DNA from: Mesorhizobium sp. NZP2298
Lineage (GTDB): Bacteria > Pseudomonadota > Alphaproteobacteria > Rhizobiales > Rhizobiaceae
Direction: 5' to 3'
Length of the DNA: 64,000 nt
Assembly (NCBI RefSeq): GCF_013170825.1
Contig: NZ_CP033365.1
Coordinates: 7,018,001-7,082,000, forward strand
Below, in pieces: positions 25,343 to 52,929 of this stretch. The translations under genes were made by a program, and so were the position numbers. A model generated the notes under the pieces. It was not told the origin of the DNA. It was given only the letters and a program-made list of their open reading frames with translations, and did not search any database. Positions within the stretch are counted from its first letter, which is position 1. Every line of letters starts with the position of its first letter.

Positions 25343-28394
<3,052 letters not shown>

Positions 28395-32110: not shown

Positions 32111-33220
32111 CTAATGCGGGGGCCTTGACATATTCAATATTCTACTAATACGACTAGCGGCACGAAGAAACGCATCCATTTGCTCTTTTGTACCGATGCT
32201 GACGCGGATGTAATTTTCCAAACCTTTATCGGGAAAGACGGCAACAAGTATTTTTTGCCTTGCAAAGGCTGATTGCCACCATGAGCCGTCCTGTCCCGTT
32301 GGCACGCGGGCAAGCAAGAAGTTTGCGTGGGAAGGGATTACGGAAAATCCAAGCTGCGACAGCGCGAGCGTCACTCGCCGTCGTTCATGCCTGATGTGTC
32401 TGTGGTTGTCTGCATAGGCGGCGCGGTGCGCAAGGACGCTGATACCAACCGCCTGCCCGATCACATTCATGTTGAAGACGTTCTGGATGTTGCGTAGCCT
32501 GCCGATAATTTCAGGGTGACCGAAACCGAAACCGACGCGAACGCCGGCAGCAGCATAGCTTTTCGAAAATGTCCTTAAGACCAGAAGATTCGAATAGCGA
32601 TTGATCAGGCGTAGACCATTCTCGGGTGCAAAGTCGACGTAGGCCTCATCCAGCACGATCAAGCGGTCCGATTTCGCTACCAGGCGTTCGATATCGGCCA
32701 CCGGAACGAACGTTCCGGTCGGATTGTTCGGATTGGCTAACAGAATGAACTTGGCGTCCTTTGCAGGACCAAAGAGCAATTGCTCCATCGGCAAGGAATG
32801 ATCTTCGCTAAATTTGATTTCGACAAATTGAGCACCCTGCAACGTTGCAAGTTTGCGGTTGAACGAAAAACCTGGCGACATCATCGCCACGCTATCCCCC
32901 GGGGCAAGGAAAGCTCTGTAGACAAGTCCAAGCAGTTCAGACGATCCGTTGCCGGCGATCACCTGATCCATGGAGACGCTGTAGGCATTCGCGGCTGCTT
33001 CCCTCAAGCTGATGTTATCGTCTTCTGGATATAGATACTGCCGTTCGAGAGCTGCAATCGCGCTTTGCATTATGATTGCTGGAAGCGGGAACGGGTTCTC
33101 ATTCGTGTTTAGTTTTACCCAACTTGAACCCGGCGCTGGTCTATCGGATGGCAGAGCATCTAACTGTCTCGCCACTTGCGAAAAAGACGAAAGCACACTC
33201 TGAAGTTTTGCATCGGACAT
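32111..33220 (-). CDS. Histidinol-phosphate aminotransferase-like PLP enzyme
   Basis: A 369-residue class I/II aminotransferase close to HisC. LNTNENPFPLP is the HisC N-terminal motif; LANPNNPTGTFVP, IVLDEAYVDFAPENGL (PLP-ring aspartate and tyrosine) and RTFSKSYAAAGVRVGFGF (PLP lysine and phosphate arginine) follow. The last step of the pathway made here could be histidinol phosphate or a related aromatic substrate, since island copies of HisC-like enzymes often have other uses. It is followed by the LLM monooxygenase on the same strand. Confidence 0.82.
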   Translation of the reverse strand: MSDAKLQSVLSSFSQVARQLDALPSDRPAPGSSWVKLNTNENPFPLPAIIMQSAIAALERQYLYPEDDNISLREAAANAYSVSMDQVIAGNGSSELLGLVYRAFLAPGDSVAMMSPGFSFNRKLATLQGAQFVEIKFSEDHSLPMEQLLFGPAKDAKFILLANPNNPTGTFVPVADIERLVAKSDRLIVLDEAYVDFAPENGLRLINRYSNLLVLRTFSKSYAAAGVRVGFGFGHPEIIGRLRNIQNVFNMNVIGQAVGISVLAHRAAYADNHRHIRHERRRVTLALSQLGFSVIPSHANFLLARVPTGQDGSWWQSAFARQKILVAVFPDKGLENYIRVSIGTKEQMDAFLRAASRISRILNMSRPPH

Positions 33221-36685: not shown

Positions 36686-37625
36686 TCATCGATGTGCACC
36701 GAGAAGCTTGCGGGCCTTGCCATGCGCGCGCGCAGCGGCGTCGGCCTGGCCCGCGGCCGGATCGCCGACGTAGAATGTGCCGTCGGTCCAGATCGCATGC
36801 ATGATCACCGCCAGCTTGCGAGCCACCGCGACACAGGCCTTGCGGTGGCAGGAGCGCTTGGCGATCTCCTGGCCCCAGCTCTTGACCCTGCCCTTGAAGC
36901 GCGTCATCAGGCCTGACGCGGCCTCGTAGAGCGCGCGCTGCACATCCGCGTCGCCGGCCTTGGAGATCCGTCCCTGAATGTCGATCGAAGAGCCCGACTG
37001 CCAGCGCCGCAAGGTCAGCCCGAAGTAGGCGGTGACGTCGCCCGAGCGGCGAAAGCGCGATGGATCGTCGATCGCCGTCATGAAGGACAGCGCCCTCACC
37101 AGACCGACATGGGAATGGCCATGAAGCGCCACCAAGTTTCGCTACGCGCGACGACCTTCACGACGAGATCGTGCAGTCGACGACACTCGCGCCAGAGCGC
37201 TGTTCGCTGACAACCTTGCGCGCATCAGCTCGGTCGACAGCGGATCATCAGCCACAACCTGCCGCACCGCCTGCTCGAAAGCGACGCGTCCGACCTTGCT
37301 CAAGCGGATGCCGAACGACTTCATCGCATACCGGAGGCGTTCTCCAAGTCGAGGAAGCTGGCTTCAGGTTGCGCCGGGGAGTCAAGAGAACTCCGTCCGG
37401 TAGCAGCTCTGCGATTGATGTCGGCTTGGCGGGCGCATCAAATGGGCGTTGCCGAGCGCATCGGCTTTGTCTGTAGCGCTGCGCCGATATCGGGGCGCGC
37501 ATATGCGCTGTCGCTAGGCAGATCGCCGGCAGACCGAGGCTCTTCAGTTCCGGATGTAGCCAGGGCAACGACGATCCCGCCTAGTAGCCAACAAGGCGGA
37601 GCCGCCCAGGATCGTCCGCGCACCC
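36686..37625 (-). mobile_element. IS110-family transposase remnant
   Basis: The C-terminal half is readable at 36686-37135: FMTAIDDPSRFRRSGDVTAY, FGLTLRRWQSGSSIDIQGRI, SKAGDADVQRALYEAASGLM and SCHRKACVAVARKLAVIMHA are signatures of the transposase_20 domain. Upstream on the same strand the rest survives in pieces of different frames: FGIRLSKVGRVAFEQAVRQV, then HPELKSLGLPAIC near 37560, and GY-stop-AGSS near 37600. At least three frameshifts and a stop separate them. No terminal repeats are visible, as usual for IS110. Confidence 0.85.
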
Positions 37626-37676: not shown

Positions 37677-39875
37677 CTACGCTGAGGAGTTGTCCGAGAG
37701 CTCGGCAATCGAATCCGTGATCGCGTTCGCATCGAGAGCGTAGCTGCGAAACGAGAGTACCGTATCCCCCACTGAATAGGCCTCCTCATGTTCGACCATC
37801 GCGTCGAAGAGCATCGCAGAGAGGCTATCTTCCTTGAGGTATTGATAGAGGAATTTCGGATCAAGCTGGGCAGCATTCCAAAGGTTCCGCTCAACGACAT
37901 TCTCAGTGCGGGCGTCTAGTCCGGAGCCGTCGTCGAACACCGACACCTCTACGGTTCTGACAACCCCCTTTTCAATCATGTTCAGCAACTCAGCCCATCG
38001 TCTCACAGGGTGTCCGTCGACCCGGAGGCCGGAGAACATGCCATTGCAGGAGACGATACAGGTTACAATCTCCTCCGCAGGACCAACGCTCCATCCCAAC
38101 CGACGATAGAATTCGGCCTCGACTTTCGGATCCGAGAGCAAATGGCTTACGCGATCGAGTTGGCCAGCGCCTGTACGAACGTGTTTGAACGAAGTTCGCA
38201 ATTCGTGCACGTTGCAGGGCAGCAGTGAATGTTTGCACTCGAACAGAAATAGGTATTCCCCAAACCGACAGACTGCATCAATCTCGATGCGTTGACCGTT
38301 GAGTACGGTCTCATATTCCGCTCGCACGTGTTCGCAATGGCGCTGCAGGGCATGCGTCAACGCACGAGAAGCGGCTTCTTGTTCAACCGAGTCAGTGAGG
38401 CGAATTTTTCCGGTATGAACGAGGTTTCGGTACCAGTTGGCCATCCCTGCGATATGCATAGGCACAAGGAGATGGCCATCCTCTCCTCGGATGATCGGCC
38501 GATACTGAAGATCAAACACGCCTGCGCTACCTGGCTTCCAGGATAAAAGGCCTAGCACATCGTCGATTTGTTCGGGCCTCAGACACCAACCCAAAAGCCC
38601 TCTCAACACCCCTTCTTTGAACACCGGAATCAACGAGCGATAAGCAATGGCGGGGTCATGGCTCAACAGAGGCTCTAATTGCCTCGTCGCAAGGCGGGCG
38701 ACAAACAGGAAAAGTCGATAGACTTTTGCAACGTCGAGAAGCGACAAGCCAGGGCGGAGTTCGAAGCGCTCCAGCTCTTCCCATGTTACCAGTTCTGTAT
38801 TTACGACATCATGAAGATAAACTACTTCCTCAGCTGTAAAAGCATCATTAGAAAACAGCGCCCGCAGGGGCGGAACATCCGGCAGATGAAATGTATAACG
38901 ACTAAAAGGCTTCTCGATGAGCTTTACAACATCTTCACGCGTCCGATCGTAGAATTTATCTGCGATATCAAATACGGAAACAACGCCTCCTTTAATAGTC
39001 TTTATTCTTTCAAATTGCATCCGGCCACGCGCTTGATTCTCCTGTATATATCCTAAACGTATACTCTTTTCCAATTCAGGCGTTGGTGCTGATACGATAA
39101 ATTTCCTTTTACTCATGAGAACTCGATAATCGAATGCATCGACAAGGATTTCTGCCTCGCCATACCGGCGTATCTTACAAGCCTTTACGAGCACTTTGTC
39201 GAAAAGTCCGTGCGAGATCTTCGATTCGGCCATCTTGTTAAACTGTTTCGTTTGGATGCCGATCTCGGTGTCGATGCAATGAACGATGTAGGACGCGCCT
39301 TCAGCCAAATCTTCCTTCGAATAGAAGCTGATACCCTCCGTGTTTGCTCCGTGGTCGGCCTGGTGACCAGTCATGAATATGGCATCAACCCTGGCTATGA
39401 CTGATTTTAACGCGGTGTCGGCATTGCGGCTTAAAAACTGCCTAAGAGTCTGGTCCAGGTGATGAATCGACGTGGCCAGATTGGCTAGCGCCCTCACCGA
39501 CGCAAGATATGTGCGAACCTCCTCAGACAAAGGCAACTCCGCGTCTGTCTGCTCAAGAGCGGCCAAAACGTCCAAGAGGCTCTTGACCTTGTAGCCATAT
39601 TTCGAGCTGCGAAAGGCCCCCGAGGTTCCCAAAGCCTCTCTCGCGATCGACTGATCACAATAGAATCCGAGCGCAAGCCAGTTCACCGCTTGCTGCGTCT
39701 TGCCGAGCGCAATGGCCCTCAAAGCGAGGTCGCCGACCTGGAAGAGTTCCCGCCGTAGCGCATGACGCAGTTCGACCTTGTCTAGGGACACCAGTATCGG
39801 GAGCCAGACCTCGGCCGCCAGTAACTTGGGGGAGACCAAACCGAGGCGGTCTTCAAGGCTTCGTTCTTGTGCCAT
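37677..39875 (-). CDS. Large protein with a PD-(D/E)XK-like nuclease motif
   Basis: A 732-residue protein. Residues 1-500 are mostly helical with no motif I can name. Residues 531-548 read EIDAVCRFGEYLFLFECK, the D-x(n)-E-x-K signature of PD-(D/E)XK nucleases, with HVRTGAGQLDRVSHLL as the following helix. No helicase or methylase motif is present. It is flanked by the IS110 remnant and, divergently, by a UvrD-like helicase gene. Its size, solitary nature and setting in a cluster of defence genes suggest an anti-phage nuclease or an overflow-type restriction factor; that is inference. The first ATG (39875) has no clear Shine-Dalgarno. Confidence 0.6.
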   Translation of the reverse strand: MAQERSLEDRLGLVSPKLLAAEVWLPILVSLDKVELRHALRRELFQVGDLALRAIALGKTQQAVNWLALGFYCDQSIAREALGTSGAFRSSKYGYKVKSLLDVLAALEQTDAELPLSEEVRTYLASVRALANLATSIHHLDQTLRQFLSRNADTALKSVIARVDAIFMTGHQADHGANTEGISFYSKEDLAEGASYIVHCIDTEIGIQTKQFNKMAESKISHGLFDKVLVKACKIRRYGEAEILVDAFDYRVLMSKRKFIVSAPTPELEKSIRLGYIQENQARGRMQFERIKTIKGGVVSVFDIADKFYDRTREDVVKLIEKPFSRYTFHLPDVPPLRALFSNDAFTAEEVVYLHDVVNTELVTWEELERFELRPGLSLLDVAKVYRLFLFVARLATRQLEPLLSHDPAIAYRSLIPVFKEGVLRGLLGWCLRPEQIDDVLGLLSWKPGSAGVFDLQYRPIIRGEDGHLLVPMHIAGMANWYRNLVHTGKIRLTDSVEQEAASRALTHALQRHCEHVRAEYETVLNGQRIEIDAVCRFGEYLFLFECKHSLLPCNVHELRTSFKHVRTGAGQLDRVSHLLSDPKVEAEFYRRLGWSVGPAEEIVTCIVSCNGMFSGLRVDGHPVRRWAELLNMIEKGVVRTVEVSVFDDGSGLDARTENVVERNLWNAAQLDPKFLYQYLKEDSLSAMLFDAMVEHEEAYSVGDTVLSFRSYALDANAITDSIAELSDNSSA

Positions 39876-40210
39876 CGAGAAGAGTATCCTAGCCCACAGG
39901 CTTCCAGTCCCGCCGATGCCACCTCAATGGTGATGGACTTCCGGACAAATCCGATCGCTGCGGAAGGCGCTCAACCTATGCGTGGCCGACCAGCAGCATT
40001 AGCAAAGTCTAGACTGGCGGGTCCTTCTGACAGTCCGGAAGCTCAAGTTTCACCGATCTGGTTAATCCTGATCTGCTGTCGGTACCAGACCGTATCACCT
40101 CCTACATTGCTGAAACCGTCAACTTTCCAGACTCACTGTCGCAAGACAGCGCTGGCCTCGATCTTGACTTCGATCCCATTTAGGGACGAATTCTAGCGAG
40201 GGGATTTGGC
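39876..40210. other. Divergent promoter region
   Basis: About 335 bases between the nuclease-like gene (minus) and the helicase gene (plus); it should hold both promoters. No coding frame or clear operator is seen. Confidence 0.4.
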
Positions 40211-42079
40211 ATGAAGCGACCTTTTATTTCGTTGAAAATCGACCAGCTAGAGACGATGCTGGAAAAGGCCACGGCGAACGGAGACAGTAAGGCTATCAAG
40301 GCCATCGCGAGTGAGGCAGCAGTCAGGAGTACCGCTCGGGCGGGAAAGCTATTGGTCCGAGCCAAATCTGCACTCGACGTCAAGCAAGCGGATCTTTTCG
40401 AACAAGCCCCCAAAGCCTCCAAGAAACATGCCGGCGTTATGCACACTAAGGCTCCGGCCAAGCGAGGGAATCGCAAACCCACCGCGGAGCAGGAGCAGGC
40501 AATCGACGCGTTCCTCTCTGGCGGATCGCTCCGCATCAATGCCTATGCCGGTACGGGGAAGACCTCAACCCTGCAGTTCCTCGCTCAGGGAACCCGCAGT
40601 CGTGGGCAGTACATTGCTTTCAACAAGGCTATTGTGGGGGATGCCCGCGAGAAATTTCCTCCCCCAGTGGATTGCTCGACAACTCATAGCCTGGCGCTGA
40701 AGTCGCTTCACTCTGACTACAAGAAAACCAAAGACAAGTTTGCCGGAAAAGTCAGCGCAAAGCAGCTCGCAGAGATACTTGGACTCAAGAAGGCATGGCG
40801 TGCCGACCGTGACCATTCCCTGCAGCCGGTATCGCAAGCCTATTTGATCCAGCAGACTGTAAGACGTTTTGCCCAAAGCGGCGACGAGGAAATCTCTGAC
40901 GCGCATGTACCGCGTCACGGATCGCTGCTTGCGGCAAGCGATGAAGCGCTAGACGCAGTGAATGAGTTTGCGCGCAACAACGCCGAGCATCTGTGGGGGC
41001 GCATGTGCGATGCGAAGGACGCGATCCCGTTGGGTTTTGACGGATTTTTAAAGCTTTGGGGACTGTCCAAGCCGCAGATTTCGGCCGACTACATTCTTCT
41101 TGATGAGGCACAGGACACTAATCCCGTGGTCCTGGACGTTCTGAAGAGGCAAGACGCCCAACTTGTCTACGTTGGGGATCGCTATCAGCAGATCTACGAG
41201 TGGCGTGGCGCGATTAATGCGATGGAGGCGATCGAGACCGATGCCGTCGTGAGCTTAACGCAGTCGTTTCGGTTTGGTCATGAGATTGCCCACGAGGCAT
41301 CCCGCATCCTGCAGCGACTCGGCGAAAGCGTACCACTGACCGGCAACCCGGCTTTGTCGAGTAGGGTCGGGACTTGCAAGCCTAACGCCATTCTGGCGAG
41401 AACCAACGCGAACGTCATGACTGCGCTGATTGAGTGCATTGACGAAGGTCGCAAACCCCATCTCGTTGGCGACAACAACGACCTTAAGGAGTTGTTATGG
41501 GGGGTGCGAGACTTGAAGGAAGGGCGCCCAACAGACGTCGCCGACTTTTTCGGGTTCAATAGTTGGGAGTCGGTGGTCGATTTCGCCAAAACCGCGGAGG
41601 GCGAGCACCTGACCATGTTCGTCAACCTGGTGCTGAGCAAAGGCGAAAAACGCCTTTTGTGGGCTATCAATCAATCCGTGGGTGAGGATCAGGCCGATAT
41701 CGTCATCTCGACGGCACATAAGGCTAAGGGACGAGAATGGAAGAACGTTCGACTTATGGACGACTTCCTGAAGACCCGCGCAGCAAAGGAGCATAAAGAG
41801 GGGGCCGATCGAGAGCGGGAGGACGCGGCGGAACTCAGACTTTTCTACGTCGCGGTCACGCGCGCAAAGGAGGCGATCGAGATCCCTGCTATGGGCGATA
41901 GGACCGAGCCGCTGCGGGCTTCATCGCGGCAGCCGACTCCGGTGTCGGCTAAGACTGTATTCGCCCAACCCGTCGACTGGACGGAGCCGGCCAAGCAAAA
42001 TCGCCATCAGGCGCAATCGCAACATACCAATCAAAAGGAGTCCAAGCGTGGCTTCTTCTCGCGCCTTTTTGGCCGCTAA
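40211..42079 (+). CDS. UvrD/F-box-helicase-like superfamily 1 helicase
   Basis: A 622-residue SF1 helicase. The first 90 residues are a basic linker. Motif I is AYAGTGKTS (111-119), motif Ia includes YIAFNKAIV, motif II is LLDEAQDT (about 297-304), motif III is VGDRYQQIYEWRGA, motif V is ISTAHKAKGREW, and motif VI is RLFYVAVTRAKEAIE. The C-terminus is basic. It unwinds DNA 3' to 5' in known family members. A single-gene helicase of this kind in a defence cluster could act alone or with the neighbouring nuclease-like proteins, but it is not coupled to either. The ATG 40211 follows GAGGGG. Confidence 0.8.
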   Translation: MKRPFISLKIDQLETMLEKATANGDSKAIKAIASEAAVRSTARAGKLLVRAKSALDVKQADLFEQAPKASKKHAGVMHTKAPAKRGNRKPTAEQEQAIDAFLSGGSLRINAYAGTGKTSTLQFLAQGTRSRGQYIAFNKAIVGDAREKFPPPVDCSTTHSLALKSLHSDYKKTKDKFAGKVSAKQLAEILGLKKAWRADRDHSLQPVSQAYLIQQTVRRFAQSGDEEISDAHVPRHGSLLAASDEALDAVNEFARNNAEHLWGRMCDAKDAIPLGFDGFLKLWGLSKPQISADYILLDEAQDTNPVVLDVLKRQDAQLVYVGDRYQQIYEWRGAINAMEAIETDAVVSLTQSFRFGHEIAHEASRILQRLGESVPLTGNPALSSRVGTCKPNAILARTNANVMTALIECIDEGRKPHLVGDNNDLKELLWGVRDLKEGRPTDVADFFGFNSWESVVDFAKTAEGEHLTMFVNLVLSKGEKRLLWAINQSVGEDQADIVISTAHKAKGREWKNVRLMDDFLKTRAAKEHKEGADREREDAAELRLFYVAVTRAKEAIEIPAMGDRTEPLRASSRQPTPVSAKTVFAQPVDWTEPAKQNRHQAQSQHTNQKESKRGFFSRLFGR

Positions 42080-42130
42080 CGCAGACGGGCATCGAACGAG
42101 TTCGCTTGCGTCTCGCGTTCGACCGTTCCG

Positions 42131-43465
42131 CTAACCGTTCGCCTTCCTCGATCGGCGAACTGGCAGAGAGTTGCTCGCTTCGACCGGCTCGAAAAGTCTG
42201 ATGGGGGTCATTTCTGCATATCGGACGCTGAATGGGCCAAAGTTCCGCATGATCCGGCGCCATTCATCAGAAAGCTCAGAGGGGGTAAAAATTAGACTCG
42301 GCTCAAACTTTCCTTGCGTGTCGATTCGAAACCCCTCTCGGCCATACTCGGCAAGCTTATACTGGTTGCCGATAAAATGTATGGCCTTGATCTTTTCCGC
42401 CAATGCCTTGTTCACGAATAGAGCAATCATGCTCTCATCAATGTCAGAAAGGCGGAGGTAAGGACCGAAGCGAAAGCTCCCGCCTCCATACCCAAATTCA
42501 GCACGCAAAAAGCGTACTTTCTCCATCCCGACTGATGTGAAAGTGCCCACGTTCGTACCCTCGTCATGATCGGCACCCTCATCGGCAACGTCCTCGTTCG
42601 GCGCATGTTCCGCGGCCGGAATGCGTCGCTCCCACTTGGCGCCCATCATTCCGTGCAAGATGCCTGCCGGCATGGCCTCAACATCGGCCACTGATTTTGC
42701 TCTCGCTCTATCTGCGCGATCCGATGTTCCAAACGTCAACATAAAGAGCCCATCTCGCGGTTCGGCGAGACTAATGCTCACGAAAAATCGGAAGTGGCCG
42801 ATCTCATTGCCATCGTACTCGCGGTCCAGTTCCAACAAGACGAGGAACTGATCAAGGGGAGCATTCATCTCTTGCAAAAATTGCATTCGGTTCAGCGACT
42901 TCTTGATTTCACTGAATCCATCAACAATCACACTCTGAATATCGTCGCCCCATCTGGCGAAGAATGTTGCCTGTTCCGCTTCAGACATCGGGATGCCGAG
43001 CGACTGAAACCGGATCGCCATTCCATCTGCGCCATCAAGGACTAATCGAATTCTTTCTCGGTCGAAGATTTCGCAGTGGGCCAATCCGCTTTTTGTGACC
43101 TTCTGGATCAACGCATCCTTTTCGCCAGCGGTAAGATTCACGTTCGTGAAAAAAACAAATGACTTGATTTCAGGGTCGGCTGCGATCGCGCTCGCCAAAT
43201 CCCCGACGAACTTTTTCTGGGCTTTCTTCTTGTGATCCGTCGAATCGTTGGCTTGATTGACGAACCCGATAGCGCCATGGACCTTCTGTTCCCCACCGAA
43301 GATAGCTTCAATATCTCGACCACCGTCGGGTCCGCCACGAGGGTGGCGCGGGCGAACATTTGTAAACCGCTTGTCCAAGGCAAGGACGGCGACGCACATA
43401 CGTTCCCGCTGCAACTGATTTGTGTCCAGGTAGCTTTTCAAGCGTTCATCAGTTCCGAATGTCAT
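42131..43465 (-). CDS. Degenerate restriction-endonuclease-like protein divergent from the SIR2 gene
   Basis: A 444-residue protein. The N-terminal domain has RHPRGGPDGGRDIEAIFGGE followed by HGAIGFVNQANDST, which follows the layout of PD-(D/E)XK proteins (G-x-DGG-x-D ... Q-x-K), but the final lysine position reads NQA rather than QxK, so catalysis is doubtful. KSFVFFTNVNLTAGEKDALI and CEIFDRERIRLVLDGADGMA then AIRFQSLGIPMSEAEQATFF are a shared string I have seen in proteins next to SIR2 genes. The rest (200-444) is unrecognised. The gene is divergent from the SIR2 gene and ends 52 bases from the helicase stop. Confidence 0.55.
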   Translation of the reverse strand: MTFGTDERLKSYLDTNQLQRERMCVAVLALDKRFTNVRPRHPRGGPDGGRDIEAIFGGEQKVHGAIGFVNQANDSTDHKKKAQKKFVGDLASAIAADPEIKSFVFFTNVNLTAGEKDALIQKVTKSGLAHCEIFDRERIRLVLDGADGMAIRFQSLGIPMSEAEQATFFARWGDDIQSVIVDGFSEIKKSLNRMQFLQEMNAPLDQFLVLLELDREYDGNEIGHFRFFVSISLAEPRDGLFMLTFGTSDRADRARAKSVADVEAMPAGILHGMMGAKWERRIPAAEHAPNEDVADEGADHDEGTNVGTFTSVGMEKVRFLRAEFGYGGGSFRFGPYLRLSDIDESMIALFVNKALAEKIKAIHFIGNQYKLAEYGREGFRIDTQGKFEPSLIFTPSELSDEWRRIMRNFGPFSVRYAEMTPIRLFEPVEASNSLPVRRSRKANG

Positions 43466-43661
43466 ATGACCAGTTTCTTTGATGACAAGGGAAGGTCCAA
43501 ATCTGCATTCTTTCGTTCTAGACCGTTTCTCGTCAGCGAGTCTTGTCGGTCATTGTCAATAACCGCAAATTGCTGGCAAGAGTTTCGCTTCGAGGCTATC
43601 CCAGTCTGGTGAACTGGGCGCTCCATTCCTGCGAATTGTCACGGCGCAAAGGGATTTAGAA

Positions 43662-46600
43662 ATGATGAGTACCTTTTCGGACGCACCGCATGTCGCGCGA
43701 ATATCCGAAGCTCTTTGGGCGCGGGAGCCGGTGGGGTCGGCGGCTTTGCTAGTCGGCGCCGGTTTCAGCCGAAACGCTACGCCGGTTCAGGGCTCGGGCG
43801 CCACGATGCCCGGTTGGAATGACATCTATGAAACAATGGTGGACCAGCTATATCCGGCACCTCCCGCACATGTGACAAGCGGCCCGGCATTTGTTGGCGG
43901 AGGGCTAAGCCACCGCGAGTGGTTGCTGACACAGAGCGGCGCGACCAGCGCTTATCTGCGGGTTGCAGAAGAATTCGAGGCTCAATTCGGGCGAAACGCG
44001 CTCGACCAGTTAATACTTCGCAATGTCCCCGACCGCCAGTTCGCGCCAGGTAAGCTGCACAAGATGCTCGTCGAGCTTCCGTGGGCAGACATCATGACGA
44101 CCAATTGGGATACCCTGCTGGAACGGGCAGCTGAAGGAGCGGAGGAGCGTGTGTATAACGTCCTGCGCACTGTAGAGGAGATCCCCGAAGCACGCGCGCC
44201 TAGGGTGATCAAGCTACATGGTAGTTTCCCTTCGCACCGCCCTTTCATTCTCTCCGAAGAAGATTTCCGGACCTACCCGACGCGTTTTGCGGCTTTTGTC
44301 AATCTCGCACAGCAGCTCTCCATGGAAAACATGTTGGTGCTACTCGGCTTTTCAGGAGACGATCCGAACTTCTTGTTTTGGTCCGGTTGGGTCCGCGATC
44401 GGCTCGGGTCGAAGGCGCCGTTGATCTACTTAATCGGCGCCCTTAAATTAAGTGCATCCAAGCGCAAGATGCTGGAAAGCCGCCGTATTCAGCCAGTCGA
44501 CCTCTCGAAGCTCCCGATGTTCGAAACATGGCCTGAGAGCCAGCGGATAGCGAACGCCCACCAATGGTTCCTTGAGCGTATGCGTGCCGAAGAGCCGTAC
44601 CGTTCGCAACGCTGGCCGGGCGCGGCAGCCGGCTTCGTACCACCTCTCATGTACGTGACTCCGTCCCCCGATTTGAAGGCGCCGATAGCTGATCCAGAGT
44701 GGAGCGGGAGGGAAACGCCTGTCGAGAAGGTTCGTGCACTAGTCTTCCAATGGCGGCAGCATCGCGGTGTTTACCCCGGTTGGATAGTGCCGCCCTTTGA
44801 TACGAGCGAGTCGCTTTGGCAACGCCTTTGGCGGCGTTTCAGCGAAGACCTCGTCGCTGGGCTGCGCGCGCTTGGCGAGGAAGAGCGGCTTGACGCATTG
44901 TTCGAGCTGAACTGGCAGCAGGAGCGAGCGCTTGTTCCACTTGTCTTGACCGTCGATGATATGATCCTCGAACTTCTTGACGCATTGATCGACCGCTATG
45001 ACCAATTGTCGTCCGAGCAGGCACGACAGTTCCGCGCCTTGGCGCTAGCGATCCTGCGACACGCTCGCGAAGAGAATGACCTAAGCGTATACACACGTTG
45101 GGCTGGCTGGCTCGAGCCTAGACTTGCGGATGATACGGAGGGGGTGGAGCGCCTAACCTATGAAACCTGTCTGCGTTTACGCGCGGATTGTGATGTCGAC
45201 GGGCTCGAAGCAGCGCTTAATAAGTGGAATATTAAAGGCGACAGCTTCTGGTTGCTTCGAAAGGCCGCCTTGCTGGCAGACTTGGGGCGAGATGAGGAAG
45301 CATCGCAATTGTCCGCGCAATCGCTCAATGCGATTCGCGAGCAAACTCGGAGGGGGGCCAAGGACATTGCCTCTTGGTCGCGCGAGAGCTTCGCCCTGCT
45401 GTTCCGCAGCGCCGTCTTGTACGGCACGATCGGCGATTGGCACGAGAACAAGCCGGCGCGCGATCGATTCGACATGCGGCAAGAGGAACTTCAGGCACGC
45501 GGCTGCCCGGGCCATCGCGACTTTTTCGACTTGGTCAGGCGGCTTGCTCATGTGGCGCCGGCGCTCAAGCAAGAGCTCGAAATCACGCAGCGGTTCGATC
45601 TAGGCTCCACGTACAGAACCTTCAATTTCGGCACAATCGACCCTCGCATTGAGCGACTACTCGCATATCAAGCACTCCGATTCCAAGAGGAGATCGGCGT
45701 GCCGCTTCGTATCGGTCACGCAGTAGTTGCGAAGCAGCTTTCCCTGGAAGCTGCGCGCTGGTTGATGAATGTGGCACCCACTAGAGCGATCGACGCTCTT
45801 CTTCGCGCCTCGCCTGGATCTGCAAGCAAGGAGTTCGACAAGCTCCTGTCTCGTTCGACGATCGCCAGGATTGAGGCGAGCGAGGCGGACCGCTTGATCG
45901 ATCGCATGTTCCGACTGATTGCCGCGGCCCAGAAGCGGGTCGAAGCAGGCGGTGTGGAGACGCGCTTTTGGATGGAGCAGCTTAAGTCGGCAATCGAAAT
46001 AGCTTCTCGCGTAGTCCTGCGTACGCCGCACCGCGCGCCAAAGCTGCTGGAAATCGGGCTGGCACTACACGCCAATCCGCGATTTGCGCGCAAAATTGAC
46101 CTAGGCGACGAGATTCACCAACTGGTGCGACGCTGTTTCGAGGCGGCGGATGTTCTCGTGCATAACGAAATGCAGCTCACAATCTTTGGACATCCGATCA
46201 CGAAGCGCACAGGCAACTTCGCTCATGACGTTCAAGATCCTGCGGAACATATTCCTAGTGATGTAAAGATGGACAACTCAGATCCGAGATGGCGGAAGAT
46301 CATCGCAACCACAATCCAAGCCTCGCGCTCGTCGGATACACGCCGCGCGGCTTCGTCCAGAGTGGTAAAGTTGCTTAATGCCAATCTTCTGAACACAAAA
46401 GATTGCAACCAACTTGGCAAGGCGTTGTGGAGTCCGGCCTATGTTCGAGATGGCCTGCCGGGCGGGACTGCCTTCTATCCCGCCTCCTTCCTTTCACTAC
46501 CGAAGCCGGCCGGCACAGATGTTCAAGGGGCCTTGTGCGCCAAGTTTCTAGCTGACACTCCACTCACGGACGCCTACTTCGAGAACGATACGTTCGCAAA

Positions 46601-47405
46601 CCTGCTTCAGCAAAAACAGTTCAGGCTTGAAGAGGCTCAGATCGTCGCGTTGATCGAGCGTCTGCACGTGTATGTTGCCAATCACGCTGGCGCGCCGAAA
46701 CACCCGAATCCATTTCGTAGAAATGACAGCGATTTGGCACTGGAATGCGCACGCGTGATTGCGAGCTTGGTTGAGCGCGCCGGGCCTAGTCCAGCGGCGG
46801 CCGAGAAAATGCGGTTGCTATCGACGCTCGACAGATATCCACTTCGGTTGGAGGCTGCCTTCCCCACACTCCTCGACCTCGGCATTGTGACCGTGGATGG
46901 TGCAACGAAAGCCCTGCAAGCGTTGTTTGGCAGTAAGGATGAGACAGATACGTTGGTCCTCGCTGAATTGCTGGATCAGATTTATCGGTCGAAGATCTCC
47001 AATCCTGACTTTGAAGCGGTGCTCTGGCCCGAGATCGTGCAGGTTATGACGATGCGAACGCCCGCACCATTAATGTGCACGACCCGTTTTTTAGCAGCCT
47101 CCATGCGCGCGCACCCAACGAGAGTACCTACCGAAATTGACGATGCACTGAGCATTGGCCTCAGATCAATTCTAAGCGAGACCAACATGACAGACCCGGC
47201 AGAGCATCTGCTCTACGACCCCTTCCTGGCGAGGCATTTCGGCGCCGCTTTGGTCAGCGCGATGGACCGAAACAACCGCGGCGATCCGGCCATGCGCGCC
47301 GCCTGGTCCAAGGCGATTGAAAGCGATCCCTTGCCGGATACGCGCCGCGGCCGGGCAAGCGCGTTTCGTGAACATAAGGTTGGAGGCTATGCGAACGAGG
47401 ATTGA
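43662..47405 (+). CDS. Large SIR2-domain protein, likely anti-phage NADase
   Basis: A 1247-residue protein. Residues 25-240 form a SIR2-like NAD-binding domain: ALLVGAGFSRNA (glycine loop, 29-40), TTNWDTLLE with Asn148, IKLHGSFPSHRP with His186, and LLGFSGDDPNF (228-237). The remaining 1000 residues are helical, without a visible P-loop, unlike SIR2-STAND proteins. This layout resembles defence-associated sirtuins, which degrade NAD upon phage infection. The start ATG follows AAAGGGATTT. It is divergent from the 444-residue nuclease-like gene and converges with the abiEii gene. The phage trigger cannot be told from sequence. Confidence 0.75.
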   Translation: MMSTFSDAPHVARISEALWAREPVGSAALLVGAGFSRNATPVQGSGATMPGWNDIYETMVDQLYPAPPAHVTSGPAFVGGGLSHREWLLTQSGATSAYLRVAEEFEAQFGRNALDQLILRNVPDRQFAPGKLHKMLVELPWADIMTTNWDTLLERAAEGAEERVYNVLRTVEEIPEARAPRVIKLHGSFPSHRPFILSEEDFRTYPTRFAAFVNLAQQLSMENMLVLLGFSGDDPNFLFWSGWVRDRLGSKAPLIYLIGALKLSASKRKMLESRRIQPVDLSKLPMFETWPESQRIANAHQWFLERMRAEEPYRSQRWPGAAAGFVPPLMYVTPSPDLKAPIADPEWSGRETPVEKVRALVFQWRQHRGVYPGWIVPPFDTSESLWQRLWRRFSEDLVAGLRALGEEERLDALFELNWQQERALVPLVLTVDDMILELLDALIDRYDQLSSEQARQFRALALAILRHAREENDLSVYTRWAGWLEPRLADDTEGVERLTYETCLRLRADCDVDGLEAALNKWNIKGDSFWLLRKAALLADLGRDEEASQLSAQSLNAIREQTRRGAKDIASWSRESFALLFRSAVLYGTIGDWHENKPARDRFDMRQEELQARGCPGHRDFFDLVRRLAHVAPALKQELEITQRFDLGSTYRTFNFGTIDPRIERLLAYQALRFQEEIGVPLRIGHAVVAKQLSLEAARWLMNVAPTRAIDALLRASPGSASKEFDKLLSRSTIARIEASEADRLIDRMFRLIAAAQKRVEAGGVETRFWMEQLKSAIEIASRVVLRTPHRAPKLLEIGLALHANPRFARKIDLGDEIHQLVRRCFEAADVLVHNEMQLTIFGHPITKRTGNFAHDVQDPAEHIPSDVKMDNSDPRWRKIIATTIQASRSSDTRRAASSRVVKLLNANLLNTKDCNQLGKALWSPAYVRDGLPGGTAFYPASFLSLPKPAGTDVQGALCAKFLADTPLTDAYFENDTFANLLQQKQFRLEEAQIVALIERLHVYVANHAGAPKHPNPFRRNDSDLALECARVIASLVERAGPSPAAAEKMRLLSTLDRYPLRLEAAFPTLLDLGIVTVDGATKALQALFGSKDETDTLVLAELLDQIYRSKISNPDFEAVLWPEIVQVMTMRTPAPLMCTTRFLAASMRAHPTRVPTEIDDALSIGLRSILSETNMTDPAEHLLYDPFLARHFGAALVSAMDRNNRGDPAMRAAWSKAIESDPLPDTRRGRASAFREHKVGGYANED

Positions 47406-47486
47406 TGCGGAGAATGGCACAGCGTTGGCTTCATCAATCAACATCACCGGCCAGCGGGCATTCCCGAACCCGGGGCGTTCCGGCAA

Positions 47487-48947
47487 CTAGTATTTCGTTG
47501 TTACATACGTACCAAATGTGCCGTAGCATTCGTAACCTGTCCGATTGTTCTTGTGCGTGTTCAAAGTCGCGTCGTAGCTCTTTTTGTTGAAAGTCTTTCC
47601 GCAGACGGAGCACCTGAAGACGTAGGTTGGGCCATTTGCCGCCGTGAAACCCGAGCTTCGGGTCGATCTAAGAGCGGGCAAACGCCGAACAACTGGCGCG
47701 CGGCGCACCTCGAAAGTTGCTCCTGAACCCGAACTCGCAGTCCGTGGAATGCTTTGTAGGCCAGATGGCGTAAGTTCAATTGGGTAGCGCGGTGCGAAGG
47801 GCGTCTGGATGGCTTTGACCCCAAGAATGCTATCGACCAGATAACTGCGCGGCTGCCCGTTGTCTGCGCGCACCGCCATGAGCAGCACGTCTCCTGCCTG
47901 CGAGCGGCGGAGGGAGTAAGCTTCGATCGCGCGCGTGGAGCGGTTGCCTTGCTTGTCCCGGTAATCGATTTCTACAAGGAGCCGGTTAGCCGCGGCGAAG
48001 CGGACCATCTCAATGTAGGTTTGGCCTCGAACGCCCGCAGGCAAACTGATGATGCGTTCACGGATGAGCGTCTCACCAGCGCCGATAGGCATCGCCGCGA
48101 GTGGTTGCGTGACGGCGCCTTCGAGCCAGGCGAAAATTTCTGGGAGCGCCCCCCAGAAGATCGCGACCGGCAGGAGCGCTGGGAGCTGGTGCTGCAGCAT
48201 GTGAATCCAGCCCGATTCAAGATCCGTGCGGTGCGGCTCGAGGTCAGCTATGCGCGGAATTTCGATGCCCTTGAATTCACATTTGGCGCGCAGGACTTCC
48301 ATAAAGCGCTGCGGGTCAGGGCGTGCCTCGGCATTTCTGTAGAGGTGCACGACGTCATAGAGGTCGCGTGGGCGTGTCCGCTCGGCGAGCGCCCGGAATT
48401 TTTCGGCGAAGGCCTCGACGTAGTCATACGCCAAGACCTCAATACCGTCTTCTGGAACGTCGCTGTACGGATGGAATATCTGCGCGCGAACAGGCGGTAG
48501 AACGACACGTTCGTCAGCAGTCAGGTCGAGTTTTATGCGCGGAAGCGCGTGGGTTGATGAGACAGGCCCCTTATAGCTGATCTTACCCTGACAAGAGATT
48601 TGTCCACGGGGATTCTGATAAACCTCGAACTCTTGCTTGTCGGCTGGAATCTCGATGCCGGTTTGTTCGTAGATCCATTCACCGATTTCAGAAAACGTGC
48701 TCTTCAAAAAGTCGGCGTCGAGTTGGTCGGGCTTGATAAGCGTAAAATCGAGATCTTCGGAAAAGCGATAGGTCTCGAAGAAACATTTCTTCAGGCACGT
48801 GCCGCCCTTGAACACCCAATTCTCCACGAGATCCTCGTGTTGGTAGATACCGGCGAGCATCCATCCGAGGACGTAGTCCTTCTCAACGACATGTGGCGTG
48901 AGGGATGTCTGCTGGGCGATGGCGAGGATTTCGCGCTTTTCGATCAT
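47487..48947 (-). CDS. AbiEii-type nucleotidyltransferase toxin fused to WYL and zinc-finger-like domains
   Basis: A 486-residue protein. Residues 1-230 are an AbiEii/AbiGii nucleotidyltransferase: VFKGGTCLKKCFFETYRFSE with the catalytic loop SEDLDF (63-68), then YVEAFAEKFRALAER. It is followed by a WYL-like domain (about 300-385: YIEMVRFAAANRLLVEIDYR, YSLRRSQAGDVLLMAVR). The last 45 residues are CSVCGKTF...H...YECYG (C446, C449, H465, C474), a zinc-finger-like end. The ATG at 48947 overlaps the antitoxin stop by ATGA; the frame upstream belongs to the antitoxin region. AbiEii toxins nucleotidylate tRNA in tested cases. WYL normally senses ligands; the fusion is unusual. Confidence 0.75.
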   Translation of the reverse strand: MIEKREILAIAQQTSLTPHVVEKDYVLGWMLAGIYQHEDLVENWVFKGGTCLKKCFFETYRFSEDLDFTLIKPDQLDADFLKSTFSEIGEWIYEQTGIEIPADKQEFEVYQNPRGQISCQGKISYKGPVSSTHALPRIKLDLTADERVVLPPVRAQIFHPYSDVPEDGIEVLAYDYVEAFAEKFRALAERTRPRDLYDVVHLYRNAEARPDPQRFMEVLRAKCEFKGIEIPRIADLEPHRTDLESGWIHMLQHQLPALLPVAIFWGALPEIFAWLEGAVTQPLAAMPIGAGETLIRERIISLPAGVRGQTYIEMVRFAAANRLLVEIDYRDKQGNRSTRAIEAYSLRRSQAGDVLLMAVRADNGQPRSYLVDSILGVKAIQTPFAPRYPIELTPSGLQSIPRTASSGSGATFEVRRAPVVRRLPALRSTRSSGFTAANGPTYVFRCSVCGKTFNKKSYDATLNTHKNNRTGYECYGTFGTYVTTKY

Positions 48948-49753
48948 GTCGTTCCCTCGCGAGCCCAGCTCGGGGGAACGCGCAGTCGCCATTTTGTCAC
49001 AACGTGCGGCCCATCCTGAGCGGGGTCGAGCTTGGCGTGGCCGCCGCTGAGATGGTGTTCGCAAAGGCGCGCCAGCGCCGCTCCTTCGGGGGAGCGTCCC
49101 GCAAGAAAGCCCAGGCGCTTGAAAACGGCACCATTGGCGAGACGCACCGCGTACTCGATGAGCTTCTCGTCGTCGCGGTCGCCACGGCGTAGGTAGGCAG
49201 CGAGGCAATCGGCCAGGTGCTGGACTCCGCCACCGATCGCTGGGTCATCCAGCATATCGATGATCGTACGGTGCACGTCCGATACGGGCACACGCGTCTG
49301 ATGGCGCCAGACGCTCTTCGTGCCAAAGAGCTTCCGCTCATCGATGTGCTTCAACGAAAAAAGCGTGCCGTGTCTCTCTTGGCGCTTCTGCCGCACAGCC
49401 TGTGCGGTCATCACGAGAATGTCCTTGAAGATTTGTTCGGTGAGGTCCCAATGCTCGGCCGCGGTGCGACCCCCGATATAGGCTGGCGCGAAGAGCGCGG
49501 GGACGAGCACCCATGGATCATCAAGGACGCGATCCGACCCCATCGTATCAATTGACGCTGCAACATAGGCGCCGCGGCCCACCCGGCTCAGCCATCCCTG
49601 CTCGACCCAGCGCGACAATCGCTGGGCGGCGGCGGTGCGGTCGAGTTGGAGCGCAGCCACTACATCATCGACGTGAATGACGTCGCCCGCCGCGGACAGC
49701 ACACGGACAAGTTGGGAACGACCTTGGGGAAGACGGGGCGGACTTTTCGTCAT
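48944..49753 (-). CDS. AbiEi-type antitoxin (type IV toxin-antitoxin)
   Basis: A 269-residue antitoxin. The N-terminal winged helix reads LVRVLSAAGDVIHVDDVVAA, RTAAAQRLSRWVEQGWLSRV, then GRGAYVAAS. LFAPAYIGGRTAAEHWDLTEQ is typical of the AbiEi core. I chose the ATG at 49753 (MTKSPPRLPQG); the frame is open to 49789, but that would pass through the inverted repeat described at 49767-49787, which suits an operator. Antitoxin and toxin are coupled by ATGA, the normal AbiE order. Confidence 0.8.
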   Translation of the reverse strand: MTKSPPRLPQGRSQLVRVLSAAGDVIHVDDVVAALQLDRTAAAQRLSRWVEQGWLSRVGRGAYVAASIDTMGSDRVLDDPWVLVPALFAPAYIGGRTAAEHWDLTEQIFKDILVMTAQAVRQKRQERHGTLFSLKHIDERKLFGTKSVWRHQTRVPVSDVHRTIIDMLDDPAIGGGVQHLADCLAAYLRRGDRDDEKLIEYAVRLANGAVFKRLGFLAGRSPEGAALARLCEHHLSGGHAKLDPAQDGPHVVTKWRLRVPPSWAREGTT

Positions 49754-49766
49754 TTGCGTTAATTTA

Positions 49767-49787
49767 GCAAAAACTGCGAATTTTTGC
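49767..49787 (-). promoter_or_regulatory. Inverted repeat upstream of abiE genes, likely autoregulatory operator
   Basis: GCAAAAA, seven bases, TTTTTGC lies 14 bases before the antitoxin ATG. AbiEi-type antitoxins are known to bind inverted repeats in their own promoter. Reading through this repeat from 49789 would add 12 extra residues without a ribosome binding site, so the repeat supports the start at 49753. Confidence 0.5.
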
Positions 49788-49892
49788 AACTAAAGCAATG
49801 AAGTTCAGTCGTTTCTGCATCTCTCCAATTTCGCGATAAGTGCGAAGTAGAGCGAACAGATCAATAGGCAGGAGGCCGGGCCTTTAAAACGC

Positions 49893-49919
49893 AAAAAATC
49901 GCCCCGGCTAGACCGGGAC
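49893..49919 (-). terminator. Terminator for minus-strand transcripts from 49.9-51.1 kb
   Basis: On the minus strand CCCGG-TCTAG-CCGGG is followed, five bases on, by six T residues. It lies between the NYN gene cluster and the abiE promoter and directly after the stop of the small frame at 49922-50107. Confidence 0.6.
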
Positions 49920-49921
49920 GG

Positions 49922-50107
49922 TTAATTGGTTGCGGGGACGCGCTTGAGGTAGGTCGCGACTGACCTCCTCATCGAGTCGCCCGCGGGAGACGCACCCCCT
50001 AAGCCGCTTCGGGGCGGGCGACGAAAATCTAAGACAGAGACACGTTCGTGAATAGGCACCACGTTCTCGGCTTTGACCGGGTTGACGTAGTTAGCCCATG
50101 CTCGCAT
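49922..50107 (-). CDS. Possible small protein of 61 residues
   Basis: The frame reads MRAWANYVNPVKAENVVPIH at its start and ends MRRSVATYLKRVPATN. It stops three bases before the terminator hairpin, which is what a real gene would do. Its ribosome binding site is weak. It follows the NYN gene on the same strand after 150 bases. It could be a spurious frame. Confidence 0.35.
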   Translation of the reverse strand: MRAWANYVNPVKAENVVPIHERVSVLDFRRPPRSGLGGASPAGDSMRRSVATYLKRVPATN

Positions 50108-50258
50108 CAGCTTTGCGGCGCTTCTTGATGGTAACCGGCCTGCGATACCCAGAGGAGAGATGTAAGCTTCGGCCTGTCGTTAGTAGTGGTGTTAGAAGGC
50201 AAGAAAGCGCTCGCCGGCGCGCCTTGGCCATCAACGGCAATGATGGAATTTCTTATCC

Positions 50259-51095
50259 CTATCGGCTCGGCAGTGGTGAGCGGTCCTTGTTCCGCTTGTC
50301 TGCGACGTACCTCTGCCCATCCTCCATCTTCATTATGTCGAAGAGGCCAGTCGCCGCGAAAAGTGCCGGAAAATTCTTGACCCCATAGTTTCGTGGATCG
50401 ATGGGCGCCTGTCGTTTCGCTGCGCTTCCTGCCGATGACATAGCTGCCCATCCATCGTCTTGCGCCGTGGCTTCCACAGCGCCACGCAGGATCGTCACGA
50501 GGGTCGTATCTTGCGACAGAGATTTGCCCGTTCGCTTGTCGGCGGACTTTTCGGCGGGCGTTTTAGATTTGGCCGCCGATTCCGCTTTGGCCTTTGGTTT
50601 CTCGCCGGGGGCTTCAGGAGTTGTCGGTTGCTCAGCATCGTCCAGGCTATCGAGGTAGAGGAAAGTCGTGCAGGCATTGATGAAGGGAGTGGGGGTTTTG
50701 CGTTCCCCAAATCCGTAGACCTCGTGTCCATTGGCCTTCAACTGCATCACTAGTGGTGTGAAATCGGCGTCGCTGGAAGCCAAACAGAAAGCGTCAAGCT
50801 TTTGCGTGTAGAGAAGCTCCATTGCATCGATCACAAGCGCAATATCGGTGGCGTTTTTGCCGGCCGAATAGGTGAACTGTTGAATGGGCCGAATTGCAAA
50901 ATTGTGCAGCTTGTCTTTCCAGTTCCTGAGATTGGCGCTTGCCCAGTCGCCATAGGCGCGGCGGATATTGGCCGTGCCGTATTTTGAAAGTTCCGCCAGT
51001 ATCGCTGCGATCTTGCCGTGGGACACATTGTCCGCATCGATGAGCAAGGCGATTCGCCGATCAGATCTGGTTCGCGACCTGTCCTCATTCTCCAT
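50259..51095 (-). CDS. NYN-domain ribonuclease-like protein with a C-terminal LOTUS/OST-HTH-like region
   Basis: A 278-residue protein. The NYN (PIN-like) nuclease domain is at residues 14-150: RIALLIDADNVSHGKIAAIL (acidic Asp20 and Asp22), NATDIALVIDAMELLYTQK, and CLASSDADFTPLVMQLKANG. A low-complexity Lys-Ala-Pro linker follows, then a C-terminal domain (TLVTILRGAVEATAQDDGWA to YGVKNFPALFAATGLFDI) with the pattern of OST-HTH/LOTUS RNA-binding domains. Such proteins likely cut RNA; the target is not known. The ATG at 51095 lies after GGGAGGGCG. Confidence 0.75.
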   Translation of the reverse strand: MENEDRSRTRSDRRIALLIDADNVSHGKIAAILAELSKYGTANIRRAYGDWASANLRNWKDKLHNFAIRPIQQFTYSAGKNATDIALVIDAMELLYTQKLDAFCLASSDADFTPLVMQLKANGHEVYGFGERKTPTPFINACTTFLYLDSLDDAEQPTTPEAPGEKPKAKAESAAKSKTPAEKSADKRTGKSLSQDTTLVTILRGAVEATAQDDGWAAMSSAGSAAKRQAPIDPRNYGVKNFPALFAATGLFDIMKMEDGQRYVADKRNKDRSPLPSR

Positions 51096-51557: not shown

Positions 51558-51580
51558 TTCGAATCCGCCTCTGGGCACCA
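51558..51580 (+). other. tRNA 3'-end sequence, likely attachment site of an integrative element
   Basis: The 23 bases read as the T-loop and acceptor 3' half of a tRNA: TTCGAATCC, then GCCTCTGGGC and the ACCA end. The upstream bases do not supply the matching T-stem (GGCGG), so no whole tRNA gene is present. The sequence differs by only a base from the remembered 3' end of rhizobial phenylalanine tRNA genes, the integration target of the M. loti symbiosis island. The integrase gene 160 bases further on reads away from it, as expected for attachment-site/integrase layouts. Which end of which element it marks cannot be told. Confidence 0.65.
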
Positions 51581-51741: not shown

Positions 51742-52929
51742 ATGTCTCTCTCCGACTTCGCCTGCAAGAACGCTAAGCCCAAAGACAAGCCATATCGTCT
51801 TGCTGATGGCGACGGGCTTTATCTCCTCGCCCGGAACAACGGCTCCAAACTCTGGCAACTCCGGTACCGCTACCTGGAGAAGGAAAATATCCTCTCCTTT
51901 GGAAAATACCCGCTGGTGTCACTTCTCGACGCGAGAGGAAAGCGCGACGACGCCAAGAGGCTGTTGATCGCCGGCACCAACCCCTCAACCAAACGCAAAG
52001 AGGAGAAGACTGCCGCCATCACGGAAGCACGCACCACCTTCGCCTTGGTCGCCGAGGAGTATGTCACGCGGATGGAGGAACGGGACGCTGCGGCGGCTAC
52101 CATCACAAAAACCAAATGGCTCCTGGAAGATCTGGCCGGCCCACTCGCCAAGCGCCCCATTAACGAGATCACTCCAGCCGAAATTTTCCAACTCCTCCAG
52201 AAGATCGAAAGGAGTGGTCGAAGAGAGACAGCGCGGCGTTTACGCGGCGTAGTAGGCAGCGTCTTCCGCTTGGCGATTGTCACCTTACGGGCAGAGGCCG
52301 ACCCAACCCTACACCTCCGGGGCGCTCTCCAGCCGCCGAAAGTCAACGGTCGTGCCGCTATCACCGATGAAAAGAAGTTCGGCAAGCTCCTGATGACGGT
52401 CGACGAATACGACGGCTGGCCAACCATCAAAGCCGCCCTCCAGTTTCTTGCCCTCACCTGTGTCCGTCCCGGCGAAATACGGGGCGCCACGCGCGACGAA
52501 TTCGACCGAAAGAAGGCCGTCTGGCATATTCCGGCCGAGCGCATGAAGATGCGTGCTCCGCACGACGTGCCACTGTCCAAACAGGCGCTTTCGGTCTTGG
52601 AAGAGGTCTGGCAGTTCTCAGAGGACGGCGGCTTGGTCTTTCCTTCGATCCGCTCCACAAAACGGCCGCTTTCCGAGAACGCCATGAACGCTGCGCTACG
52701 ACGTATGGGCTACGGAAAGGACGAAGTGACCGCCCATGGTTTCCGGGTGACCGCCAGCACCATCCTCAACGCCCGCGACTACGATCCAGACGTTATTGAA
52801 GCTGTCCTGGCGCACCAGGACAAGAACGCCATCCGGCGGACCTACAACCGCGCGACCTATTGGGAGCAGCGGGTGACGCTGATGCAGGAGTGGGGAGATC
52901 TGCTAGACGCGTTAAAGGCGAACCACTAG
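51742..52929 (+). CDS. P4-type tyrosine recombinase (integrase)
   Basis: A 395-residue integrase with the N-terminal DUF4102-type domain (LSDFACKNAKPKDKPYRLAD, GLYLLARNNGSKLWQLRYR), a core-binding domain, and the catalytic domain: arginine in CVRPGEIRG, HGFRVTAS (His-x-x-Arg), the second histidine in VLAHQDKNA, and the tyrosine nucleophile in IRRTYNRA. It starts at the ATG after GGGAGG. P4-type integrases use tRNA 3' ends; the tRNA-end sequence lies just upstream. It resembles the IntS type of symbiosis islands in kind, but identity to IntS needs a comparison. Confidence 0.9.
   Translation: MSLSDFACKNAKPKDKPYRLADGDGLYLLARNNGSKLWQLRYRYLEKENILSFGKYPLVSLLDARGKRDDAKRLLIAGTNPSTKRKEEKTAAITEARTTFALVAEEYVTRMEERDAAAATITKTKWLLEDLAGPLAKRPINEITPAEIFQLLQKIERSGRRETARRLRGVVGSVFRLAIVTLRAEADPTLHLRGALQPPKVNGRAAITDEKKFGKLLMTVDEYDGWPTIKAALQFLALTCVRPGEIRGATRDEFDRKKAVWHIPAERMKMRAPHDVPLSKQALSVLEEVWQFSEDGGLVFPSIRSTKRPLSENAMNAALRRMGYGKDEVTAHGFRVTASTILNARDYDPDVIEAVLAHQDKNAIRRTYNRATYWEQRVTLMQEWGDLLDALKANH

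Follow-up and report, generated by a model that had tools for sequence, protein, structure and literature searches.

A variable right-end slot of a Mesorhizobium tRNA-Phe symbiosis element probably carries defence cargo

Introduction

What is a dense run of nuclease-, helicase-, SIR2-, AbiE- and NYN-type genes doing beside a tRNA-end sequence in Mesorhizobium sp. NZP2298, and to which mobile element does it belong? We analysed a window of 64,000 nucleotides (positions 7018001-7082000 of the 7.34-Mb single-contig genome) that contains seven such genes, here called A to F, with gene E an AbiE pair. We find that the block lies near the right border of a symbiosis integrative and conjugative element (ICE) inserted at tRNA-Phe, in a slot of variable content, and that it is probably defence cargo. 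At the level of sequence, three points are clear: where the ICE begins and ends, that related ICEs differ in cargo, and to which families three of the genes belong.

Results

The window contains the right end of a symbiosis ICE

The tRNA-end sequence is a 23-bp core from the 3' end of tRNA-Phe. A genome search allowing up to two mismatches returned two copies of this core, and none of a reversed control; the second copy lies within an intact tRNA-Phe gene (genome positions 6602365-6602440), 467,140 bp from the first. Located between these borders is nifH, and nifK, TrbE and ThiC were found among 68 open reading frames (ORFs) sampled from the 135 large ORFs of the region. The G+C content of the 467-kb region is 0.597, compared to 0.630 in its left flank (9.8 kb read) and 0.640 in its right flank (29 kb read). 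The intact tRNA-Phe gene is followed by an integrase of 441 amino acids (aa), 51% identical to the integrase in the window; its position suggests that it is IntS. Sequence hallmarks of a symbiosis ICE are present: a tRNA 3'-end repeat at both borders, an integrase adjoining the intact tRNA gene, and symbiosis and conjugation genes inside.

ICEMlSymR7A, the symbiosis island of M. loti R7A, uses IntS to insert itself at the tRNA-Phe 3' end (PMC8627217) and measures 502 kb (PMC4334631); thiamine genes are conserved in such elements (ICESyms), which have large accessory content (PMC7643969). The NZP2298 element shares with ICEMlSymR7A the tRNA-Phe 3'-end site, a size of about 500 kb and the thiamine genes; its thiC gene (25441-27396) has a thiamine pyrophosphate riboswitch immediately 5' of it (25340-25456). 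Given the pair of cores, the nif and conjugation genes, and the insertion site known from R7A, the window holds the right 51.6 kb of the ICE, with the repeat as its attR. Judged by borders and content, the 467-kb region is a symbiosis ICE of the ICEMlSymR7A kind. In contrast to the present element, ICEMlSymR7A is not said to carry defence cargo at its right end in the accessible text of PMC8627217 and PMC7643969.

1..51580, no strand: right end of the 467-kb symbiosis ICE (core copies, G+C, nifH, nifK, TrbE, ThiC; left border at the intact tRNA-Phe gene)
51558..51580, plus strand: attR-type repeat, 23 bp of the tRNA-Phe 3' end (genome search)
51742..52929, plus strand: tyrosine integrase lying in the chromosome beyond the ICE (Pfam integrase domains)

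The window integrase lies beyond the repeat. In four other Mesorhizobium genomes (G403, G408, G500 and G502), its ortholog, 96-97% identical, begins 183-184 bp past the first base of the core. This equal spacing places the window integrase on the chromosomal side, and we therefore rejected the idea of a small island bordered by it. The attachment site named in the original prediction is thus a real tRNA-end repeat, but it is the far border of the 467-kb symbiosis ICE and not the site of a small island.

The cargo next to attR differs between related elements

A conserved aminotransferase gene forms the left border of the variable stretch:

32111..33220, minus strand: aminotransferase, hisC-like by eye (Pfam Aminotran_1_2)

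It has a match at E<=1e-150 in 77 of the 146 genomes of our Mesorhizobium set, NZP2298 included (G numbers denote genomes of this set, L numbers loci taken for comparison). We compared the side facing attR in 16 of the 77: NZP2298 and 15 genomes whose aminotransferase is 95.9-99.7% identical. The core, with zero to two mismatches, is present in 10 of the 16, again including NZP2298, at distances from the aminotransferase of 7.8, 8.1, 10.7, 14.8, 19.4, 20.6, 22.5, 22.5, 28.4 and 34.9 kb. It was not found in G471, G409 (within 40 kb), G411, G420, G402 (contig ends) or G400 (within 14.4 kb). Much of the cargo occurs in a single genome; one set is common to G403 and G503, and another to G397, G400, G409 and G502.

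PADLOC covered six of the ten delimited slots at least partly, all but those of G403, G503, G502 and G397; the scan of the other strains took in 20 large ORFs (4 in G408, 2 in G406, 11 in G500, 2 in G434 and 1 in G410). Three of the six hold a recognised defence system. Besides the NZP2298 slot, that of G408 has Mokosh (MkoA 804.8 bits, MkoB 295.8 bits), and that of G500 has Septu (PtuA 827 bits, PtuB 403 bits) together with weaker matches to PDC-S71 (78 bits) and an LmuA-like protein (81 bits). The G434 slot contains a 738-aa protein (L115:5892-8108) with a NERD match slightly below the Pfam cut-off and, close to it, a UvrD helicase of 924 aa that has a topoisomerase-type zinc finger (L115:10963-13737).

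Parts of the block recur in two genomes. In G471, gene D, an interrupted gene C and a shortened AbiEii gene lie near the same aminotransferase; in G436 the block is on contig C31 and the aminotransferase match on C17, so that it could not be placed in the slot.

We also observed two large ORFs with AAA domains in the G406 slot (2064 aa, L098:8655-14849; 587 aa, 7030-8793) that have no PADLOC match at E<=1e-5 and may constitute an unknown system.

Three of the seven genes match known defence families

37677..39875, minus strand: gene A, 732 aa, mostly helical with a predicted C-terminal PD-(D/E)xK (NERD-like) nuclease domain
40211..42079, plus strand: gene B, UvrD-family helicase, 622 aa (PF00580, E 2.6e-15; phrog_1967, E 4.2e-101)
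42131..43465, minus strand: gene C, 444-aa orphan with a restriction-endonuclease-fold N-terminus and a beta-rich C-terminus
43662..47405, plus strand: gene D, DSR2-like SIR2 protein, 1247 aa (PADLOC Dsr2, E 3.2e-175; Pfam SIR2_2)
47487..48947, minus strand: gene E pair, AbiEii-type nucleotidyltransferase with a WYL domain (PADLOC AbiEii, E 2.7e-215; Pfam; ATG start)
48944..49789, minus strand: gene E pair, AbiEi antitoxin/regulator, overlapping the AbiEii start (PADLOC AbiEi, E 2.8e-134; Pfam AbiEi_4)
50259..51095, minus strand: gene F, NYN and OST-HTH (LOTUS) protein (PF01936, E 5.1e-41; PF12872, E 1.3e-7)
36686..37135, minus strand: relic of an IS110-type transposase, 149 aa (Transposase_20, PF02371, E 1.5e-15)

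The original prediction described a defence-type cluster of seven genes, of a sort that usually carries anti-phage or anti-plasmid systems, between an IS110 relic and a tRNA end. All seven are there, the relic being a piece of Transposase_20 and the tRNA end being the tRNA-Phe core. The defence-system search that it proposed, run here with PADLOC, returned strong matches for three of them (Dsr2 583 bits, AbiEii 713 bits, AbiEi 444 bits), which bears out the cluster's defence character in part; nothing found here links helicase B or the NYN gene F to defence. The genes are in general single or divergent, as proposed, with the exception of the AbiE pair, which overlaps on one strand. That some of the genes might be new systems is plausible for A and C, given their poor PADLOC matches.

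The G+C content of 37677-49789 is 0.561; among all 221 overlapping stretches of equal size taken elsewhere in the 467-kb region, the lowest value is 0.564.

As a control for enrichment we took every second one of the 135 filtered ORFs of at least 340 aa elsewhere in the ICE, giving the 68 ORFs above. They yielded 17 PADLOC families at E<=1e-30, with one ORF per family and five names: HerA, SspA, DndA, IetS and mad3. The SspA/DndA match is probably the nif cysteine desulfurase. Assuming that these represent five ORFs, the block has 3/7 and the control 5/68 (Fisher p 0.023), the control ORFs all being at least 340 aa. The HerA-type ATPase match (E 1.6e-229), in one of the 68 ORFs, is perhaps a second defence locus.

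Genes B and F are probably passengers. Relatives of gene B, partial and 82-88% identical, occur in three other Mesorhizobium genomes on contigs of 0.66-1.02 Mb, and one of them is interrupted; gene F has a paralogue elsewhere in the genome (48% identical over the NYN part). We rejected gene B as the GajB protein of Gabija; the best GajB match reaches 59.6 bits over parts of the protein, and neither A nor C matches GajA at E<=0.1.

Gene D is a divergent relative of DSR2

The PADLOC Dsr2 match of gene D is best over residues 98-958. Like DSR2, gene D has a SIR2 N-terminus and a long, sensor-like C-terminal part, and the predicted catalytic residues N148 and H186 are 38 positions apart, as are N133 and H171 of DSR2. 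PMC10981675 describes the roles of the catalytic Asn and His in DSR2 and detection of phage by its C-terminal domain. DSR2 chains in the PDB match gene D best over residues 95-246 only. Taken together, the matches identify gene D as a divergent DSR2 relative.

The copies in G436 and G471 are 74% identical to the window's gene D overall, compared to 93-98% for AbiEii and 85-88% for gene C. Against G436, residues 101-250 of gene D are 88-90% identical and residues 801-1050 only 52-64%. The nonsynonymous rate (dN) is 0.077 over residues 101-300 and 0.242 over residues 801-1150, with a synonymous rate (dS) above 0.9 in both, and dN/dS is 0.05 and 0.25, respectively. Given that the C-terminal domain of DSR2 detects phage, faster change at the C-terminus of gene D fits a sensor in an arms race.

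The AbiEi and AbiEii genes are adjacent and overlapping on the same strand, as in AbiE, a type IV toxin-antitoxin, and both have strong PADLOC matches. The AbiEii protein here differs in its WYL domain and in a tail, some 85 residues long, that the best PADLOC AbiEii model does not cover; a weak C2H2 zinc-finger match is seen at its C-terminus. A gene D relative in Methylorubrum pCMU01 (L127:1-15255) also has a defence-like neighbourhood, comprising a further SIR2 gene, genes for an S8 peptidase and an MBL-fold protein, and a member of the VPA1262 family.

Gene A represents an unnamed family of predicted NERD-like nucleases

Gene A matches no Pfam family at E<=1 and no PADLOC family. Its nearest named relative is a Mesorhizobium protein (P0001, 91% identical), and it is found in one of the 146 genus genomes. 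We aligned it in two sets, A2 (44 rows, from 43 relatives) and A5 (20 rows). The putative nuclease residues E531, D533, E546 and K548 are present in 20/20 rows of A5; in A2, E531 and D533 are each conserved in 43/44 rows and E546 and K548 in 42/44. The PADLOC NERD model PDLC02906 matches five of ten scanned relatives (E 1.8e-9 to 0.023), though not gene A itself, and Pfam NERD matches four of five remote relatives below its cut-off. The 738-aa protein of the G434 slot is also a remote relative (hhalign 95.4%, E 1.7e-8). These residues and matches place gene A in an unnamed PD-(D/E)xK (NERD-like) family.

Relatives of gene A lie on eight plasmid records, six of them typed conjugative, and remote ones on IMG/VR viral contigs. 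In S. fredii the neighbours of such a relative include a HEPN/Toprim gene as well as AbiE, and in Novosphingobium a type I restriction-modification system. Gene A has no match at E<=1e-5 in the phage collection and none in BFVD at E<=0.001; a profile search with A5 listed 41 proteins, all of them among the 43 relatives used for A2. No credible relative was found in the PDB with the A2 profile or by phmmer with the G434 protein.

The nearest structure is Upx (PDB 9wuf), with a Foldseek E-value that is not significant and an alignment to the C-terminal part of Upx only; the gene A profile has no sequence match to 9wuf at E<=10. Upx has 1212 modelled residues and gene A 732 aa, so that the Upx architecture of more than 1200 residues is not seen here. 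The name Upx reportedly comes from a 2020 screen by Gao and colleagues, and our literature search found no paper on its mechanism.

Gene C is an orphan that lacks the usual nuclease lysine

Gene C matches no Pfam family at E<=1 and a single PADLOC family (E 0.0022). Its nearest named relative is a Mesorhizobium protein (P0045, 95% identical). A profile (A3) was built from 58 of the 120 relatives listed, and residues were counted over 59 sequences. Position 73, where the (D/E/Q)xK motif has its lysine, is N in 43, T in 11, D in 3, S in 1 and A in 1; lysine is found in none. K85, in contrast, is conserved in 58/59. Given the missing lysine, gene C would either use the displaced K85 or bind without cutting. 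Gene C thereby differs from the Avs4 N-terminal nuclease and MspJI, and its 444-aa model lacks, by eye, an NTPase-like part.

A PDB profile search with A3 gave no credible relative, and there is no match at E<=1e-5 in the phage collection. Viral contigs contain one gene C locus (L018), adjoining an S24-type gene, and plasmids one record, from Azospirillum (queried with the window's gene C and a Shewanella relative). Gene C is a cross-phylum orphan family with an Mrr/Avs4-like domain without the usual lysine.

Discussion

Several results weigh against defence as the role of the block. The enrichment fades when ORF size is matched (2/5 versus 5/68, p 0.069, not significant) and is lost if all 17 control families are different ORFs (p 0.37). 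Three scanned slots (G406, G410, G434) have no PADLOC defence system, bar helicase matches in G434, and the cargo of G403 and G503, which lies outside the PADLOC scan, looks by eye like efflux and metabolic genes, so defence is not the slot's sole purpose. Gene D scores 574.7 bits against an NCBIfam Dsr2 cut-off of 1400; for this reason we call it DSR2-like rather than filing it as DSR2. Every dN/dS value retained is below 1, none exceeding the neutral level, and residues 51-100 and 301-400 of gene D are also more divergent, which a C-terminal sensor does not explain. Since the size-matched count is not significant, it is the cargo of the other strains, more than this count, that argues for a defence slot.

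The same enrichment result and the G403/G503 contents favour a different account, in which the slot is a general cargo site whose genes serve maintenance and competition of the ICE, through toxin-antitoxin addiction and plasmid exclusion, and not phage immunity. AbiE pairs also occur as addiction modules, and relatives of gene A are found on conjugative plasmids. Yet remote gene A relatives are on viral contigs too, and the DSR2, Mokosh and Septu families are catalogued as anti-phage; we regard the general-cargo account as unlikely.

Two pairings within the block were also weighed. Genes C and D, divergent neighbours, might cooperate as one two-gene system. Among 145 other genus genomes, both that hold C have D adjoining it in the same divergent order, and relative to G436 the two genes are similarly diverged at synonymous sites (dS 0.75 for C and 1.15 for D), AbiEii being younger (0.16). 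Outside the genus, however, D is near none of four C loci (L012, L018, L131, L132), and C is near none of five D loci (L126 to L130, the first of them short). In G436 the two are separated by an ORF of 378 aa that looks by eye like a transposase (L027:6635-7771), and in G471 gene C is interrupted (L028:9160-10499; two open pieces with an internal TGA) while its D neighbour is open. We rejected an obligate pair because neither is near the other at loci outside the genus, and hold cooperation of any kind to be improbable. Less probable still, and hard to sustain, is a nuclease-helicase pair of A and B resembling other nuclease plus UvrD systems. The two are adjacent and divergent, and the G434 slot combines its remote A relative with a UvrD helicase; but A occurs in one of the 146 genomes and B (E<=1e-100) in four, with only NZP2298 in common, the G434 helicase resembles gene B over the helicase motifs alone, and the A-relative loci compared contain no B relative.

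If the block is defence cargo, as we favour, its genes would act in different ways. The C-terminal sensor of gene D would meet a phage structural protein, as in DSR2, and the SIR2 domain would then destroy NAD+, so that the infected cell stops before phage are made. AbiEi and AbiEii would form a type IV toxin-antitoxin, a regulator with a growth-arresting nucleotidyltransferase. Gene A may be a nuclease that works as one protein, with some 490 helical residues that sense or contact a product of invasion and a C-terminal domain that cuts nucleic acid, most likely DNA. Gene C would stand alone, with its Mrr/Avs4-like domain joined to a beta-rich recognition domain. More speculatively, gene A could be the founder of an anti-invader system that needs one gene only, related to the C-terminal half of Upx but compact, and dispersed by phages, conjugative plasmids and symbiosis ICEs, and the right end of tRNA-Phe symbiosis ICEs could be a defence hotspot where legume symbionts swap immunity along with nodulation; this larger proposal is tentative and may well not hold.

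The core defence hotspots of P. aeruginosa (PMC10250203) likewise have a fixed site with exchangeable defence cargo; the present slot differs in adjoining the attR of a symbiosis ICE. In the literature surveyed (titles and the starts of abstracts, with few subscription papers), no defence hotspot is described at such an end. As defence cargo on a mobile element, the cluster is of an ordinary kind; its location, an exchangeable slot where symbiosis ICEs end, is unusual. The two unnamed conserved families, A and C, merit testing, and the slot is a tidy place to hunt for new defence genes across many strains.

Nitrogen fixation passes between soil bacteria on symbiosis ICEs. Should the right end also bring exchangeable immunity, pressure from soil phages and plasmids could select the symbiosis genes that spread and the inoculant strain that persists; the element that turns a bacterium into a partner of plants may confer immunity on it as well.

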